Of a DNA stretch of 33,171 nucleotides, positions 11,614 through 18,147 are shown in pieces (the stretch's first letter is position 1; each line of letters begins with the position of its first letter). Below the pieces are notes generated by a model. The model was not told the DNA's origin, searched no databases, and worked only from the letters and a program-made list of their open reading frames with translations. Origin of the DNA: a virus; the IMG/VR virus record IMGVR_UViG_3300042907_001875, positions 1 through 33,171 of that record, one strand, 5' to 3'. Made by a program: the position numbers and the translations under genes.

Positions 11614-12435
11614 ATGAAAACAATACATAGTTTAAGCGGAGGTAAAACATCAAGTTATATGGCAGTACATTATCCTGCTAATTACAATATTTTTGCTCTT
11701 GTTAAAATTGATGATGTAAAATCTGCTCCAAAAGATAAAGCACTTATTAAAATTGTTTCTGATAAAATAGGAGAAGATTTTATTGCAACAGCGGAAAGTG
11801 ATTTAACATTAAAAGCAATGATTGATTTAGAGCAATTAATAGGAAAGGAGATTTTTTGGGTAAGTGGTGATTCATTTGACCATATAATTAAAAAAAGCGC
11901 AGGTTTTTTGCCAAACTCTTTTAGAAGATATTGCACCACCGAAATGAAAATACGACCTATTTTTGATTGGTGGTTTAAAAATATTAACGAAAAAGTAAAA
12001 ATGGGAATAGGTTTTAGATATGATGAAAAAGAAAGAGCCGATAGATTGAGCACATCATTTAAGGGAATTATAGGAAAGTCAATAAATGGAAATAGAAATA
12101 AGTGGGGTGAGGTGGAATGGAGGGAAGGATATTTTCCATTAATTCAAGATAGGATTACTCATTTGCAAGTAAAACGATGGGCGGACTCAACAAAGTTAAT
12201 ATTTCCCGCTGATTCAAATTGCGTGGGGTGCTTCCATAAACCAAAACAACAGTTAAGAAAAAATTGGGACGAGCATACTGAAAAAATGCAATGGTTTTCA
12301 AATTTTGAAAAAACAGGAAAGAGTTTTTGGAAAGATGACAAAATTACATATGAACAAATAAAAAAATTAGGAGTTCAACAAGATTTTAATTTTGGAACAG
12401 GCAGCGGATGTCAAGCAGGATTTTGTACTGATTAA
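11614..12435 (+). CDS. PP-loop ATPase, PAPS-reductase-like, cysteine-rich
   Basis: A 273-residue adenine-nucleotide alpha hydrolase fold. The PP-loop SGGKTS is at 8-13. Then come RRYCTTEMKIRPI (Cys107), CVGCFHKP (Cys203, Cys206) and GSGCQAGFC (Cys266, Cys271). The RYCT..K.P motif and spaced cysteines recall DndC-type and related phage PP-loop proteins, some of which hold an iron-sulfur cluster. That a cluster is present here is inference. The ECGxH motif of CysH is missing. PP-loop enzymes activate a substrate as an adenylate and then thiolate, aminate or reduce it. I chose ATG 11614; an upstream TTG at 11593 would overlap the previous gene. Confidence 0.85.
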   Translation: MKTIHSLSGGKTSSYMAVHYPANYNIFALVKIDDVKSAPKDKALIKIVSDKIGEDFIATAESDLTLKAMIDLEQLIGKEIFWVSGDSFDHIIKKSAGFLPNSFRRYCTTEMKIRPIFDWWFKNINEKVKMGIGFRYDEKERADRLSTSFKGIIGKSINGNRNKWGEVEWREGYFPLIQDRITHLQVKRWADSTKLIFPADSNCVGCFHKPKQQLRKNWDEHTEKMQWFSNFEKTGKSFWKDDKITYEQIKKLGVQQDFNFGTGSGCQAGFCTD

Positions 12436-12445
12436 TATAAAAAAA

Positions 12446-12625
12446 ATGGAAATCAAAGAAAAAAAGACACAGGGAGGTCGCAGAATTAATGCAGGTAGGA
12501 AGTCAGTTGTTGATAAAAAAGAAGCAATTGTAATCTACGTTAAAAAGAGCACTGTTTCAGCGCTCGGAATTGACTTTATAAAAGCAAGTACCAAGGACCA
12601 TATTCAAAGCCTTCTTGAATCTTAA
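12446..12625 (+). CDS. Small basic protein with GGRR..AGRK motif (59 aa)
   Basis: I chose ATG 12446 with a run of A upstream; a longer frame from 12392 would overlap the PP-loop gene. The N-terminal half is highly basic, with GGRRINAGRK at 10-19, a pattern frequent at the N-terminus of phage DNA-binding and small-terminase-like proteins. The next stretch (AIVIYVKKSTVSALG, about 27-41) has a strand-then-helix form as in ribbon-helix-helix proteins. A DNA-binding or regulatory role is likely but not shown. It lies just upstream of the promoter of the ParB/cupin/PAPS-reductase operon. Confidence 0.6.
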   Translation: MEIKEKKTQGGRRINAGRKSVVDKKEAIVIYVKKSTVSALGIDFIKASTKDHIQSLLES

Positions 12626-12656
12626 TTTTGTTGATTCAATTATTTGGTTATTTTTG
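12626..12656 (+). promoter_or_regulatory. Promoter of the ParB/cupin/PAPS-reductase-like operon
   Basis: TTTTG at 12626-12630, an 18-base gap, then TATTTTTG at 12649-12656: a good Bacteroidota-type promoter. The start would be near 12663, just before ATG 12671, and the box partly overlaps a longer, in-frame TTG-initiated alternative, which argues for ATG 12671. Confidence 0.7.
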
Positions 12657-12670
12657 CCAAAAATAAAAAA

Positions 12671-13285
12671 ATGAAAAATTCAATAAAAGATTTGAAGCAC
12701 GATCAAAGAAATGCGAACGTTCATTCTCCTGCAGGAATGAGAAAACTTGAAGAAGGAATCAAGAAAAATGGATTGGGAAGGTCAATCTTGATAAGCAATG
12801 ACAACGAGATTATCGCAGGTAACGGAGTTACTGAAACAGCCGAGAAGGCAGGTATCACAAAAGTAAGGATCATTGAAACTGATGGCAACGAAATAATCGC
12901 AGTAAAAAGAACTGACATTCACTCCGGCACGAAGCAATTTTATGAAATGGCCTTGTCAGATAATATTATCGCAAAGGAAAATATCGTTATGGACGCGGAA
13001 GTCACAAACGCTATTTGCGAGGAATACGAAATTGAGGAGTATTTTATCAGTCAAGCAGGTAGCAATGACTTCTTAAAAATGGGCGACCATTTCGATGATG
13101 AAAGAACTACTGCAGAAAAAAAGCCTTCAGCTACGTCAGACGACTATTCAGTATTTGAATTGATAATGATAAACACCAACAAGGTTTTGCTTTTGGAAAC
13201 ATTGAATAAAATAAAGCATGAATTTCTTTTTGAAAAACATGAGGAAGCGTTAATGGAATTAATAAGAATTTATAACAAAAAATAA
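12671..13285 (+). CDS. ParB-like nuclease/CTPase-fold domain protein
   Basis: A 204-residue protein with an N-terminal ParB/Srx-like domain: DQRNANVHSPAGM (11-23), KKNGLGRSILI (31-41), EIIAGNGVTETAEKAG (46-61) and VIETDGNEI-type strands up to the VKRTDI segment. The C-terminal part is helical and not recognised. Stand-alone ParB-domain proteins are widespread in phages, sometimes fused to DNA methylases; none is present here. ParB-fold proteins bind DNA and nucleotides. It starts an operon of five genes with overlaps or a one-base gap, just behind its own promoter. Confidence 0.82.
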   Translation: MKNSIKDLKHDQRNANVHSPAGMRKLEEGIKKNGLGRSILISNDNEIIAGNGVTETAEKAGITKVRIIETDGNEIIAVKRTDIHSGTKQFYEMALSDNIIAKENIVMDAEVTNAICEEYEIEEYFISQAGSNDFLKMGDHFDDERTTAEKKPSATSDDYSVFELIMINTNKVLLLETLNKIKHEFLFEKHEEALMELIRIYNKK

Positions 13286-13286
13286 A

Positions 13287-14090
13287 ATGACAAGAAGCGA
13301 AAATAGTGCTTTCATATCTTTTGGGAATGATAGAGCAGGGATAGTATTTGATGATTCAAAAAACAAAGAATATCCTATAAAGTATTACAATGTGATAGGT
13401 AACTCTTTTCCAAAAGGGGATAAAGATTGCTCTTATTATGGCTATGTTTACAAAGGACTTTTAAAAATAAAAGGAACAAACTTCCCTGAACTTTACGTTG
13501 GAAATGGAATGTACTTTTCAGTTTCGGGCGAATTTGAGATTGAAAGCGTTTTTTGCGGAAAGGCAATATTAATTGAGGTGCTTCACACAAAAGGTATTTA
13601 TCCATCAAATAACTTTAAGGCTATGTTTACAGTTGGTGGACCTATAGAGAACGAGGGCAGATTAAAGTACATTGACGGTTGCACTGACAGCATATTGATA
13701 CACCCTGTTAAGAAAGGCGACCCTTGTTTTAATCATTTGCATTTCCCGAGCAATATAAAACAAACACCTCACACTCACCCGAGTCACAGAATCGGAGTGG
13801 TGGCCAAAGGTAATGGTCTTTGTGTTACTCCATTTGGGAATTTGGAGTTAAAGCAGGGAATGATATTTGTCATAAAAGGTTGGGACGGAGTTTCTTTCGC
13901 TACAGGAGTTGACGGAGGTAAGTACGAAGTAGGAAATCATTGTTTCTTTACAAGTGATGAGCCAATGGACGTTATTGCATTTCACCCCGATAGTGATTTC
14001 GGTGCCGAAGATGAGAATCACCCTATGATAAACAGAACAATCGTTGACGGAGTTTCAGCAGCAAATATCGATTCAATAAAGACAAAGTAA
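13287..14090 (+). CDS. Cupin-like (double-stranded beta-helix) protein
   Basis: A 267-residue protein with a cupin-type metal-site pattern in its second half: QTPHTHPSHRIGVVAKGNG (159-177), with His162, His164 and His167 as candidate ligands, followed by the turn GMIFVIKGWDG and a second motif around NHCFF (His218) to FHPDSDFG (His233). The first half (about 30-115) repeats a strand-rich layout (YYGYVYKGLLKIKG, GNGMYFSVSGEF), so a bicupin is possible. Cupins include dioxygenases, isomerases and metal-binding sensors; the reaction here is unknown. The gene sits between a ParB-like and a PAPS-reductase-like gene with one-base spacing and stop/start overlap, so it should belong to the same process. 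Confidence 0.72.
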   Translation: MTRSENSAFISFGNDRAGIVFDDSKNKEYPIKYYNVIGNSFPKGDKDCSYYGYVYKGLLKIKGTNFPELYVGNGMYFSVSGEFEIESVFCGKAILIEVLHTKGIYPSNNFKAMFTVGGPIENEGRLKYIDGCTDSILIHPVKKGDPCFNHLHFPSNIKQTPHTHPSHRIGVVAKGNGLCVTPFGNLELKQGMIFVIKGWDGVSFATGVDGGKYEVGNHCFFTSDEPMDVIAFHPDSDFGAEDENHPMINRTIVDGVSAANIDSIKTK

Positions 14091-14800
14091 TGGATAGGTC
14101 AAAGATTTACTCGGCACGAAAAATAATTGAAACAGCAGCAGCCCAAGCACCTGCAGGACATAAATTCTTTTTGTTTTCAGGAGGAAAGGATAGTTTAATT
14201 GCCTGTCATTTAGCGAAACAGACAATCGGGCTCGTTGACGGATTTTGTGAGCTTAGCCTTTTGCCTAAAAAAACAGAAGATGAAGTTAAGTTTTTAGCAG
14301 AACATTACGGATACAATATTCAGTTTTCAAATAAATTAAACCCTGTCGCTTTTTCAGAAATTTGGGACTCTCAAATTTGCAATCCAAGGTGGAGGCCTTC
14401 TACTCTTGACAAAGAAAGACATTGGAAAGCAATTCCCGAGTTTGCAAAAAAAACGAATGCAGGGCTTATGCTATTTGGCAGAAGGAAGCAAGAGAACACT
14501 ATTCCGTCACCGATATACTTTAAAAAAAGTTTAAAGGCTATACAGGTTCACCCGATTTTAGATTGGACTCTGCAGGACGTATGGGACTATATCAATGAAA
14601 ACAAATTGCCTTTTCCTTCATGTTATACCGATGGTTCAAAGCATTTGTTTACTTGGGTTTCTTTGGCTCATGAAGTATTTAAGAGGACAGGTTCAAGAAA
14701 AGAGACGTATGATTTGATTTGGAAGTATGCTCCTGAATATTTAATCATAAGGGCAAAACAAGAGGAATTTGCAAACAGTTACATAAACACAAAAAAATGA
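14090..14800 (+). CDS. PAPS-reductase-like PP-loop protein
   Basis: A 236-residue PP-loop protein: FSGGKDSLIACHLAK with the ATP loop at 30-35, GRRKQENTIPS at 130-140, and HPILDWTLQDVWDYI at 154-168 followed by LPFPSCYTDG. These are landmarks of the PAPS reductase/CysH family. The C-terminal ECGxH motif with the catalytic cysteine of assimilatory reductases is absent, so it is probably not a functional CysH. The start overlaps the cupin stop (TAATG) and its end overlaps the next gene (ATGA). An annotation as a sulfur-assimilation auxiliary gene would likely be wrong. Confidence 0.85.
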   Translation: MDRSKIYSARKIIETAAAQAPAGHKFFLFSGGKDSLIACHLAKQTIGLVDGFCELSLLPKKTEDEVKFLAEHYGYNIQFSNKLNPVAFSEIWDSQICNPRWRPSTLDKERHWKAIPEFAKKTNAGLMLFGRRKQENTIPSPIYFKKSLKAIQVHPILDWTLQDVWDYINENKLPFPSCYTDGSKHLFTWVSLAHEVFKRTGSRKETYDLIWKYAPEYLIIRAKQEEFANSYINTKK

Positions 14801-15996
14801 CTTTAGTAAGAAGAAAAGAATATTCAGAGCAGGACGTTTATTCAAAAGCACTTGACAGAATCAGGTATTTATTTACAGCCTTTGATAATATAGTAGTAAG
14901 TTTTTCTGCAGGAAAGGATTCAACTGTAGTGTTAAACTTGACCGAAATAGTCGCAAAGGAGTTAGGTAGGTCGTTTCAAATAAACTTTTTTGATGAGGAG
15001 GCAATTCACCCTCCGACAATTGAATACGCTGAAAGGACACGCGAAAAGTTCGGTGACTCATTCCATTGGTACTGTCTTGAATTCAAACACAGGAACGCTT
15101 GTTCAAACGAAGAACCTTTTTGGTATTGTTGGGACTCTGAAAAGAAAGACCTTTGGGTTCGTAATTTGCCCAAAAATGCGATTACTTCTGACCCTCTTTT
15201 TTACAAAGGACTTTCGTTCCAAGAATTCAGCTCGTTGAAGCCGAGAAGGAGTGACGGTTTAACAGTTCAATTGACAGGGGTTAGGACACAGGAAAGTTTC
15301 CGAAGAATGAAGGCCGTTAGCGCAAAAAAGAATGATAACTATATCGCGAGGGAAGGTCACGTTTCAATTGCTCACCCGATTTACGATTGGAGCAGTGAGG
15401 ACGTTTGGTTGGCGGTCCATAAATTTGGTTGGGACTATAATAAGACCTACGATATATTTAATCAAACAAAATTGAACAATAAGTTTTTGGCGCAAAGAGT
15501 TTGCCCTCCATTTGGTGAGGAGCCTTTAAGAGGCTTATGGATCTATGCCGAGTGCTTTCCTGAAATGTGGCATAAAATGTTAGCAAGAGTTAAGGGAGTT
15601 GCTACAGCGTGGAGGTATGCAAACACCGAACTTTATGGAATCGGTAAAAAGGCAAAGCCCGACGGAATGACCTTTAAAGAGTGGATTGAAATTATTCTTG
15701 AAAGTTACGACACGATTGACATTGTCGCTGTAAAGAAGAACATAAATTCAATCATAAAAAGACATTACGATAAAACAGACGACAGCATTCCCGATGAGAA
15801 TGTTCACCCTTTGACAGGTACGTCTTGGGCTTTCCTTTGTAAGTTAGCCATAAAAGGTGACTTTAAAGGACGTACAGGACCCGCTCTTGAATCAGCCGCG
15901 ATTAAAGCTCAACGTGATTTAGGATTTACTACATTTGACCAAGCAATTGAAAAATTTGGAAGTGAAAAATATAAATTAAAAAGACGTAAAAAATGA
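14797..15996 (+). CDS. ibrA: IbrA-like PAPS-reductase-family protein
   Basis: A 399-residue protein with PP-loop SFSAGKDST (35-43), GVRTQESFRR (161-170) and HPIYDWSSEDVW (193-204), plus a long C-terminal extension (about 240-399) of the type seen in IbrA/DUF3440 proteins. The closest named relative I recognise is IbrA of an E. coli genetic island, which acts with the ParB-like IbrB to switch on prophage eib genes. As in IbrA there is no ECGxH motif. The next gene, overlapping by 4 bases, is an IbrB-like ParB protein, so the pair is preserved in order. Confidence 0.82.
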   Translation: MTLVRRKEYSEQDVYSKALDRIRYLFTAFDNIVVSFSAGKDSTVVLNLTEIVAKELGRSFQINFFDEEAIHPPTIEYAERTREKFGDSFHWYCLEFKHRNACSNEEPFWYCWDSEKKDLWVRNLPKNAITSDPLFYKGLSFQEFSSLKPRRSDGLTVQLTGVRTQESFRRMKAVSAKKNDNYIAREGHVSIAHPIYDWSSEDVWLAVHKFGWDYNKTYDIFNQTKLNNKFLAQRVCPPFGEEPLRGLWIYAECFPEMWHKMLARVKGVATAWRYANTELYGIGKKAKPDGMTFKEWIEIILESYDTIDIVAVKKNINSIIKRHYDKTDDSIPDENVHPLTGTSWAFLCKLAIKGDFKGRTGPALESAAIKAQRDLGFTTFDQAIEKFGSEKYKLKRRKK

Positions 15997-16490
15997 AACA
16001 GCCTTTAGATGAAATTAATTGGATTGATAGAGAACTATTAAAGCCAAACAATTATAACCCGAACAAAGTTGCTCCTGCAGAAATGAAGCTTCTTAAAATA
16101 TCAATTCTTGAAGACGGTTGGACTCAACCTATCGTTATTAACCCTGACCATACAATCGTTGACGGTTTCCACAGGTGGACTGTTTCGGGCTCAAAAGAAA
16201 TTTATGCTCTCACCGGAGGGAAGGTGCCGACAGTTATGGTTCACCCTAAAGACAAGGCTCAACAGCAAATGGCCACGATACGTCATAACAGGGCGAGAGG
16301 TACTCATGGAGTTCTTGAAATGTCAGACATAGTTACCGATATGGTTAACCAAGGAGTAACAGGTGAGGAAATCATGTCAAGATTAATGATGGAAAAGGAA
16401 GAAGTAGTTAGGTTGCTTTTTAGAGCAGGTATCCCAAAGTCAGAAGTGTTTAAGGATAAAGAATTTTCAAAGTCATGGACTCCAAAATAA
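15993..16490 (+). CDS. ibrB: IbrB-like ParB/sulfiredoxin-fold protein
   Basis: A 165-residue ParB/Srx-fold protein: LKPNNYNPN (16-24), LEDGWTQPIVIN (39-50), the nucleotide-site motif VDGFHRW (56-62) equivalent to the GCHR region of sulfiredoxin, and RHNRARGTHG (97-106). This matches the IbrB type. The C-terminal third is helical. It overlaps the IbrA-like gene by 4 bases and is followed after one base by the small terminase gene. Its function may be to guide the partner PP-loop enzyme to DNA, or transcriptional control as described for IbrAB in E. coli. Confidence 0.83.
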   Translation: MKQPLDEINWIDRELLKPNNYNPNKVAPAEMKLLKISILEDGWTQPIVINPDHTIVDGFHRWTVSGSKEIYALTGGKVPTVMVHPKDKAQQQMATIRHNRARGTHGVLEMSDIVTDMVNQGVTGEEIMSRLMMEKEEVVRLLFRAGIPKSEVFKDKEFSKSWTPK

Positions 16491-16491
16491 T

Positions 16492-16992
16492 ATGAATAAC
16501 AGGAACGCATACATTGATTTTATAACTGACCATTTAAAGACAGGGAACGTATCACGACAAAATGTGATGTCTGCTTTTGGCAAGAAATGGCAAACAAGCG
16601 AAAGAACGTTTGATAGAGCGTGGAAGGTCGCCAATGAGCACTATTCAGAGTATTTAGATGTTCTTAAAAAAGCAAAGGACAGCGAGCATACCGAGGAACA
16701 GTTGACAATAATCAAGACAAAAATAGGCAGCAAAACAGAACGTCTTTTGAATTACAAAGCAGAGGTTGACAATTGCATTTATGAACTATCAAACAATAAA
16801 ACATTTGACACAGTGGTCGTAAATGGCAGGGTGCAAAAAGTATCGCGTGAATTAAGCGTGTCTGAGCGTTCAAGATTACGAACTGTTATCATAGGACTGC
16901 AGACTGAAATAAGTAAAATAGAGGGAGACTATGCTCCTGCAAAGGGCGAAATGAAGGTTACCAATGAGCAGCCTCTTTTCAAACTTGATTAA
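16492..16992 (+). CDS. terS: Terminase small subunit-like protein
   Basis: A 166-residue protein directly ahead of the large terminase. The N-terminal half (about 5-50, with a WQTSERTFDRAWKVA helix-turn-helix-like segment) should bind the packaging site. The C-terminal helix RLRTVIIGLQTEISKIEGDYAP (about 131-152) is a pattern of Bacteroidota phage small terminases. It recognises phage DNA and presents it to the large subunit. It starts one base after the IbrB-like stop, so packaging genes are transcribed with the cupin/PAPS-reductase operon. Confidence 0.78.
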   Translation: MNNRNAYIDFITDHLKTGNVSRQNVMSAFGKKWQTSERTFDRAWKVANEHYSEYLDVLKKAKDSEHTEEQLTIIKTKIGSKTERLLNYKAEVDNCIYELSNNKTFDTVVVNGRVQKVSRELSVSERSRLRTVIIGLQTEISKIEGDYAPAKGEMKVTNEQPLFKLD

Positions 16993-16995
16993 TAA

Positions 16996-18147
16996 ATGGC
17001 CTTTCAAATAACCACAGCATTAAAGAAAATTTATGCAATGAAGTCACCTATTCGGGTGGTTCAAGGTGGGACTTATGCATCAAAGACGTATTCAATAATT
17101 CCGATACTTATAGATCGTGCAATTCGTGAGAAAGGTTTAAAGATTACGATTGTCGCTGAAACTTTAGGAGCAGTAAAAGACGGTGCTTTAGATATTTTCA
17201 AAGAAATAATGAAGGACACGAACAGGTGGAATGAGAATAGTTTTATAAACAGCCCTCTCCAATATACCTTTGCAAGTGGCAGCAAGATTCAATTTAAAGC
17301 GTTCGATGAGGCAGGGAAGGCTCACGCTGCAGGAAAGCGAGATATACTCTTTCTGAATGAAGCAAACTACATCAAGTGGGAAATAGCGAATCAACTTATG
17401 GGAAGGTCTGATGAGGTTTATATTGACTTCAATCCTTCAAGAGCATTTTGGGTTCATGATGAGGTTTTACCTATGAAGGCAGCCGAGTTTCTTTTGCTGA
17501 CCTATCTTGATAATGAAGCCCTATCACCGAATAAACTTGAAGAACTTTTAGAAAAAAAGGAAAAGGGAAAGCACTCTGAATATTGGGCAAATTGGTGGAG
17601 GGTTTATGGCCTCGGTGAAATAGGAACTTTGCAGGGCGCAATATTTCAAAATTGGCAGGAGGGTGAATTTGATGATAGTTTGCCTTTTGTTTATGGCCAA
17701 GACTTTGGTTTCAAAGACCCTGACACTTTAATAAAGGTAGCAATTGATAAAAAGAAAAAGATTATTTATGCAGATGAGGTAATGTATAGGTCAGGGAACT
17801 CATCAGAAAGGTTGATTCAAGAAATGAATTCATTGATCAAAAATAAAAACACTTTAATTGTGGCCGATTGTGCTGATGCCCGAGGCATCACAAACATTTC
17901 AATCGCAGGTTTCAATATCAAACCCGCAGCAAAAGGAGCCGATTCTGTGAGGAATACTATCAAGAGAATGCAGGACTATCAGATAATCGTAACACCCAAC
18001 AGCCTGAACTTAAAGGAGGAATTAAGGGCTTATACTTGGCATGATAAGAAGTCTGAAACACCTATTGATGCAATGAATCATTTAATTGACCCTTTGAGGT
18101 ATGCCTTTGATGAATTAATTCCTGCAGTCGCTTTTTATTTTGGTTAA
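16996..18147 (+). CDS. terL: Terminase large subunit
   Basis: A 383-residue packaging motor. ATPase: variant Walker A GGTYASKT at 24-31, Walker B DILFLNE at about 116-122. Nuclease (RNase H fold): YGQDFGFKDPDT with Asp236, VADCAD with Asp291, and the late PIDAMNHLIDPLRYAFDEL with the third acidic site. It cuts concatemeric DNA and drives it into the prohead through the portal. It is short but complete compared with the usual 400-500 residues. Whether the phage packages by headful or cohesive ends cannot be read from this. Confidence 0.95.
   Translation: MAFQITTALKKIYAMKSPIRVVQGGTYASKTYSIIPILIDRAIREKGLKITIVAETLGAVKDGALDIFKEIMKDTNRWNENSFINSPLQYTFASGSKIQFKAFDEAGKAHAAGKRDILFLNEANYIKWEIANQLMGRSDEVYIDFNPSRAFWVHDEVLPMKAAEFLLLTYLDNEALSPNKLEELLEKKEKGKHSEYWANWWRVYGLGEIGTLQGAIFQNWQEGEFDDSLPFVYGQDFGFKDPDTLIKVAIDKKKKIIYADEVMYRSGNSSERLIQEMNSLIKNKNTLIVADCADARGITNISIAGFNIKPAAKGADSVRNTIKRMQDYQIIVTPNSLNLKEELRAYTWHDKKSETPIDAMNHLIDPLRYAFDELIPAVAFYFG

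Follow-up and report, generated by a model that had tools for sequence, protein, structure and literature searches.

What might a phage gain from an operon that places two ParB-like proteins, a cupin and two PP-loop proteins directly in front of its terminase genes, and whose genes are usually annotated as belonging to sulphur metabolism and plasmid partition? The question is raised by five genes at positions 12671-16490 (+ strand) of the viral record IMGVR_UViG_3300042907_001875, a linear stretch of 33,171 bases that is possibly a fragment and is referred to as a whole as the window. The genes encode a ParB-like protein (ParB1), a cupin with two barrels (bicupin), a PP-loop protein of the 3′-phosphoadenosine-5′-phosphosulphate (PAPS) reductase family (PP2), and homologues of IbrA and IbrB. 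A first-pass annotation had proposed that they may modify DNA or another nucleic acid. Modification of DNA is still the best reading, and stronger evidence for it now comes from related phages, in which the cassette is swapped with known DNA-modification genes at one place. We consider it likely that phages of Bacteroidota and other phages use the cassette to modify or hypermodify their DNA after replication.

Exchange with DNA-modification genes before the terminase

In the window, ParB1 (12671-13285, +; 204 amino acids) is located at the 5′ end of the operon and the terminase at the 3′ end, with the enzyme genes between them, and this layout fits a frame found in related phages. A TerL profile built from the cassette phages fetched 80 sister loci, none of which has the bicupin cassette, and a ParB1 homologue is still placed 5′ of the terminase in 55 of the 80. 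The content of this slot was read in 53 sister loci with readable open reading frames (ORFs) between ParB1 and terL. Of these, 13 have a TET/JBP oxygenase, in some cases with a TAGT glycosyltransferase or the amino acid:DNA transferase ADDT, 12 have a TAGT-type glycosyltransferase by itself, eight have Mom, and another eight a fusion of ParB with an N6/N4 methyltransferase, while an ABC-GNAT protein (three loci), IbrAB without the cupin (two loci) and 7-deazaguanine genes (one locus) occupy the slot less often. Six slots are empty but for a terS-like or unassigned gene, and in 42 of the 47 filled slots there is a family with a known or predicted role in DNA modification; these counts refer to the best 80 matches, with class representatives drawn from the slot and with many contigs being fragments. 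Pfam and PHROG profiles confirm the slot representatives (Tet_JBP, TAGT, Mom, N6_N4_Mtase with ParB_N, and ADDT), as well as a GTP cyclohydrolase I, a PTPS and a TGT-like protein. The ParB1 proteins of several cassettes share 41-60% identity with the ParB half of one ParB-methyltransferase fusion, and a search of 131 cassette loci for the TET, TAGT, Mom, ADDT and 7-deazaguanine representatives gave no match. Since the cassette and established genes of DNA modification replace each other at a single position, the slot points strongly to DNA as the substrate, and the cassette most likely modifies DNA. The window shares with these modification loci the same ParB1 homologue and the same place before the terminase, whereas its enzymes are PP-loop and bicupin proteins and do not belong to established DNA-modifying families.

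Related ParB proteins also occur in cultured phages, namely in Bacteroides phage BS-TP3, with the order ParB-methyltransferase-terS-terL, and in Leptospira phage LE3, with the order ParB-GNAT. Serratia phage eta was considered as another phage in which a ParB gene might go together with a modified base and was discarded, its DNA having been shown to be unmodified. Two loci with the same slot, L287 (3209-6491) and L288, combine a TET/JBP-like protein, a class II glutaminase, a GNAT-like protein, ADDT and a P-loop kinase. In locus L224, the product of positions 1820-2626 matches PHROG 6059, which is labelled as queuine tRNA-ribosyltransferase, yet the protein is a Tet_JBP oxygenase by Pfam, so that the label looks wrong.

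Conservation of the cassette

Among 296 stretches of IMG/VR that matched the cupin profile, the 80 with the best scores were kept. When, among 53 non-redundant viral loci, only those with enough flanking sequence are counted, ParB1 lies 5′ of the cupin in all 50 testable loci, and IbrA and IbrB lie 3′ of it in 50/50 and 47/47, respectively, while PP2 is present in 20 of 50 and hence optional. The order is altered in L155, L156, L187 and L189, where the cupin follows IbrB and the genes are still together, which argues that the cassette is a working unit. Because the same order recurs in tens of independent viral contigs, the five-gene cassette is a real and conserved unit, far beyond chance. 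The first-pass annotation had treated the genes as one unit and had suggested a neighbourhood survey for a linked cupin and second ParB; the order conserved in the 53 loci and the co-occurrence of the genes across viral contigs agree with such a unit. No match to the bicupin was obtained in 50,697 records of isolated phages with two different query proteins, and the full cassette is therefore not known from any record of that collection. A description of the cassette was likewise not found in the literature, although subscription papers lay largely outside this search and a prior mention is possible.

A separate scan with IbrA revealed two kinds of loci, those in which IbrA is accompanied by ParB1 and a cupin, and those with a plain IbrAB pair. 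Plain pairs also occur in cultured phages, such as Streptococcus thermophilus phage CHPC877 and Escherichia phage PhiR5_2. The bicupin-linked proteins form one clade (support 100/99) in a tree of 57 IbrAs, and the bicupin label changes five times on this tree compared to 17.1 times with shuffled labels. The few bicupin-less loci of this clade include some with a different, single-domain cupin, confirmed as Cupin_2 in L186 and assigned by eye or similarity in L179, L185, L191 and L192, while L182 is cut off. Several loci carry additional or substitute genes. A TctC-type solute-binding protein replaces the bicupin between ParB1 and IbrA in L167 (2756-3598), L172 (4160-5014) and L168, a periplasmic binding protein being unusual within a phage operon, and an SSF sodium:solute symporter lies between the same two genes in L184 (3590-5032) and L188, with the gene of a 2-oxoglutarate-Fe(II) oxygenase just 5′ of it (scanned in L188). 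An aldehyde dehydrogenase gene (E 5e-104) is inserted between the small cupin and IbrA in a single phage contig (L179:3602-5005). Between IbrA and IbrB, 13 cassettes have a sub-threshold match to a PD-(D/E)XK nuclease (L077:6166-6780 and 12 others) and 16 loci a protein of ~174 residues without a convincing family match (L177:774-1295 and 15 others), and a short protein that looks SET-domain-like by eye is encoded just 3′ of IbrB in two contigs (L038:3521-3889).

The proximity to the terminase could also be read as an accessory role in DNA packaging, in which the ParB-like proteins would mark packaging sites for the terminase and the enzymes would be incidental. The operon indeed runs into terS and terL, and terL follows the cassette in 30 of 34 testable loci. 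However, among 36 non-redundant cassettes the mean distance is 0.36-0.46 for bicupin, IbrA and IbrB compared to 0.72 for TerL; TerL is thus the more divergent, so that no single terminase type goes with the cassette. Since the enzymes would moreover be left unexplained, we regard a packaging role as very improbable. In Mantel tests the pairwise distances of all five proteins compared (bicupin, IbrA, IbrB, ParB1 and TerL) are correlated with one another (p 0.003-0.013), and therefore co-divergence alone cannot separate the cassette from the phage background.

PP-loop proteins and the type of chemistry

PP2 (14090-14800, +; 236 amino acids) matches PF01507 above the cut-off (6e-15), and IbrA (14797-15996, +; 399 amino acids) matches both PF01507 (2e-12, 47.6 bits) and PF11922 (DUF3440; 3e-11, 43.8 bits) above the cut-offs. 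Inactivating changes in the PP-loops, a possibility raised by the first-pass annotation, were not found, the motif being intact in PP2 (SGGKDS) and in IbrA (SAGKDS). The match to PF01507 and the customary annotation in phage records would favour PAPS reductases (cysH) that aid host sulphate assimilation. The catalytic motif ECGxH of CysH, already noted as missing from both PAPS-reductase-like proteins of the operon, is indeed absent from IbrA and PP2, and also from PP3, a third PP-loop protein encoded upstream. As the PP-loop proteins of the window also do not reach the NCBIfam cysH cut-offs, and the gene context is one of DNA modification and packaging, a role in sulphate assimilation is hardly credible.

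A second sulphur-based explanation is a backbone modification similar to phosphorothioation, in which IbrA or PP2 would take the role of DndC or SspD, a link that had been drawn in the first-pass annotation. The cassette shares the PP-loop fold with DndC and SspD and has weak profile matches to DndC (for IbrA, 1e-7 with PADLOC and 21.4 bits with TIGR03183; for PP2, 14.1 bits with the latter), and the upstream PP3 matches SspD (3e-13). By contrast, the TIGR03183 cut-off of 290.4 bits is far off, and DndA, DndB, DndD, DndE and Ssp partners were absent from scans of the proteins of the window, which is possibly a fragment (25 of 27 PHROG families listed). Furthermore, neither IbrA nor PP2 has a CxxC motif, and the conserved cysteine C236 of IbrA is absent in 13% of its relatives. 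Phosphorothioation is also disfavoured by a glutaminase in related cassettes, which argues for nitrogen, so that the earlier link did not hold and we regard this chemistry as quite improbable.

This glutaminase is a class II glutamine amidotransferase that is encoded between PP2 and IbrA in eight cassettes (L027, L032, L037, L043, L053, L061, L062 and L069), and it is an addition to what the first-pass annotation had described. Its motifs are complete in all eight, namely MCGIWG, HNG, the arginine within IG[HQ]xRL and the aspartate within [NL]D[ST]E. A glutaminase beside a PP-loop protein would be the arrangement of a glutamine-dependent PP-loop amidotransferase of the AsnB or Gat-QueC type, and it is seen in these eight relatives, while the window cassette, with its shorter PP2 subtype, is without a glutaminase. 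Because of the glutaminase in relatives and the SGGxDS proteins that neighbour the bicupin in cells, a transfer of nitrogen rather than sulphur is suggested, and nitrogen chemistry can be proposed for the cassette with moderate confidence.

The bicupin

The product of positions 13287-14090 (+; 267 amino acids) was described as cupin-like from the sequence, and of the protein-by-protein profile searches suggested at that time, those for the other members gave clear assignments (PF01507 for PP2 and IbrA, PHROG ParB families for ParB1 and IbrB), whereas the cupin has a weak Pfam match only (0.004). Its AlphaFold2 model, however, consists of two cupin barrels and is of high confidence (predicted local distance difference test, pLDDT, 95.1). 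The pattern of H162, H164 and H218 is kept across 63 proteins, and the family has a specific C-terminal motif (HPDSDFG...HPMINRT). The best fold matches are DUF861/ureidoglycine aminohydrolase (Z 18-19), followed by BacB, various dioxygenases and isomerases. The bicupin fold is shared with YlbA, BacB and AerE (Z 15-19 over ~190-212 residues), whereas the identity of these proteins to the window bicupin is 8-14% (8-13% for ureidoglycine aminohydrolase), and a sequence search of solved structures gave a lone match at chance level (E 0.17). Since the nearest folds mix an aminohydrolase, isomerases and dioxygenases, the possibly oxidative step that the first-pass annotation had assigned to the cupin is left undecided by the fold.

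Of 52 loci with cellular relatives of the bicupin, 16 have an SGGxDS (PP-loop) protein no more than 5 kb away, which is a plain count and not one set against random loci. Several of these SGGxDS genes directly adjoin the bicupin, and one is a Pfam-confirmed asparagine synthase. In Maricaulis and relatives (L089, L091, L095, L098-L100 and L112), inspection by eye places the bicupin beside NeuB-, PseG-, cytidylyltransferase-, ATP-grasp- and sulphotransferase-like genes. Such sialic- or pseudaminic-acid-like clusters suggest a separate role of the cellular cupin family in surface-sugar synthesis. The other cellular neighbourhoods are scattered, and as a guide to the reaction they are suggestive, not decisive.

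These neighbourhoods bear on whether the cassette might act on RNA or a small molecule, such as a tRNA base or a metabolite directed against host defence, instead of DNA. The PP-loop enzymes TilS, TtuA and LarE, which appear among the structural matches, act on tRNA and cofactors, and cellular bicupins occur beside asparagine-synthase-like PP-loop and biosynthetic genes. Such a substrate would explain neither why TET/JBP, TAGT, Mom and ParB-methyltransferase genes can stand in the cassette's place nor why ParB1 is common to them, and is in our view unlikely.

IbrA, IbrB and ParB1

The naming of the IbrA/IbrB pair in the first-pass annotation was right, as the window encodes a protein with PF01507 and DUF3440 next to a ParB-like partner. 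In the 57 IbrAs the PP-loop and the following DxE are invariant. The model of IbrA (pLDDT 91.9) is closest to FAD synthase (Z 15.4, root-mean-square deviation, rmsd, 3.4 over 167 residues) and CysD (Z 14.7, rmsd 3.3 over 168 residues), followed by PAPS/APS reductases and FMN adenylyltransferase. As most of these alignments stop at around residue 256 of 399, the DUF3440 part is barely covered by the fold search. IbrB (15993-16490, +; 165 amino acids; PHROG 2159, 4e-64) and ParB1 (PHROG 620 and 498) both match PHROG ParB families and have a ParB/Srx fold by profile, IbrB with an additional weak match to Spo0J. The IbrA/IbrB pairs of E. coli prophages and phages resemble that of the window in the PAPS_reduct and DUF3440 domains, the adjacent ParB-like protein and the invariant PP-loop, while the IbrA of the window groups in a clade of its own, with full support, that comes with ParB1 and bicupin, both of which are missing from classical pairs.

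IbrAB of E. coli is reported to activate prophage eib genes, and to our knowledge the pair is known solely as a co-activator of prophage genes. GenBank records name it in this way, and both ParB-fold proteins could bind DNA, so that IbrA and IbrB might simply co-activate the transcription of phage genes, with no chemical modification of DNA involved. However, an invariant PP-loop catalytic motif in all 57 IbrAs is unlikely for a pure DNA-binding regulator, and the slot is common to DNA-modification enzymes and not to regulators, which makes co-activation without chemistry rather unlikely. The two functions are compatible, since modification could be the means by which IbrAB alters transcription. 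The E. coli IbrAB complex is mentioned in PMC4541368.

Gene layout, operon boundaries and neighbouring genes

All five ORFs of the cassette are confirmed on the + strand with the overlaps and the one-base gap described in the first-pass annotation. ParB1 and the cupin are separated by one base, the cupin and PP2 overlap by one base, and PP2/IbrA and IbrA/IbrB are joined by four-base ATGA overlaps (the latter at 15993-15996). The series continues beyond the end that was previously described: IbrB is followed after a one-base gap by a putative small terminase subunit (16492-16992, +), assigned by its position 5′ of terL and without a Pfam or PHROG family match, and then by the large terminase subunit (16996-18147, +; Terminase_3C 8e-14, Terminase_3 3e-9). 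Just 5′ of the cassette, at 12627-12656 (+), lies a promoter-like site of the Bacteroidota type, TTTG-N18-TATTTTTG. The good promoter that had been claimed is thus matched by a site, while the pattern as such is not in excess in the window (four matches compared to 2.55 expected by chance), so that it is the location alone that supports it. Other genes of the window encode a portal, a capsid, an ERF annealing protein and a BT4734-like primase domain; as these and the promoter match fit such a host, the window probably derives from a phage of Bacteroidota. Plasmid partition by ParA-ParB was discarded, since no ParA family turned up in the Pfam and PHROG scans of window proteins.

PP3 (11614-12435, +; PADLOC SspD) differs from the PP-loop proteins of the operon, its PP-loop reading SGGKTS and not SGGKDS, and it has a CxxC motif and two C-terminal cysteines. 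Relatives occur in other phages, with one in Cellulophaga phage phi19:3 being 48% identical. Although it had been included in the cassette by the first-pass annotation, no relative was found beside any other cassette locus, and PP3 is ruled out as a member.

Proposed function and implications

How could these proteins act together? IbrA and IbrB most likely form the core of the cassette. As a PP-loop ATP pyrophosphatase, IbrA would adenylate a target oxygen and join a nitrogen-containing group there, while IbrB and ParB1 might bind DNA or a nucleoside triphosphate and steer the enzymes to the phage DNA before packaging. The bicupin and PP2, in some relatives together with the class II glutamine amidotransferase, may make or finish the small group that is attached. 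Adenylation and nitrogen chemistry are inferred from family knowledge, and the order of the steps is speculative.

A precedent is found in Synechococcus phage S-B43, where the asparagine-synthetase-like ligase CmoY couples glycine to 5-carboxymethylcytosine in DNA with formation of an amide; a glutaminase domain is present in a second group of CmoY-type ligases, and linkage to ParBc genes is common (PMC12783734). The CmoA-CmoX-CmoY system thus resembles the cassette in using an AsnB-like ATP-dependent ligase on phage DNA, in the glutaminase domains of some members and in the linked ParBc, whereas the PP-loop proteins of the window belong to the PAPS-reductase family and not to AsnB, and a bicupin is added. 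A DNA C5-methyltransferase comparable to CmoX is not apparent, no methyltransferase family having been found in Pfam scans of the proteins of this possibly fragmentary window.

Several observations weigh against DNA modification by the cassette. The case for it is drawn from position and family membership. Outside the slot, the sister representatives were found in two of 469 ORFs, a low count that is partly circular because the representatives came from the slot itself. The bicupin occurs also in cells, outside phage cassettes, IbrAB of Streptococcus phages is placed away from the terminase, and the PP2 that stands beside the glutaminase is a longer subtype than that of the window.

A broader proposal, to which we would give somewhat less than an even chance, is that IbrAB modifies DNA wherever it is found, including E. 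coli prophages, and that the cassette, with bicupin, PP2 and the optional glutaminase, is a more elaborate version for making a novel DNA base. The PP-loop protein would then adenylate a DNA oxygen to which a nitrogenous group is attached. If this were true, it would also explain how eib is switched on.

Viromics surveys count such genes as cysH, with which both the context and the missing motif disagree, a point of relevance to what has been claimed on sulphur metabolism in viruses. Should DNA be the substrate of the cassette, the known routes of phage DNA modification would be extended by PP-loop enzymes of the PAPS-reductase type and by bicupins, and for IbrAB a chemical mechanism open to testing would be at hand. 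The ParB1-terminase slot may furthermore serve as a tool, in that uncharacterised genes inside it are candidates for new DNA modifications.

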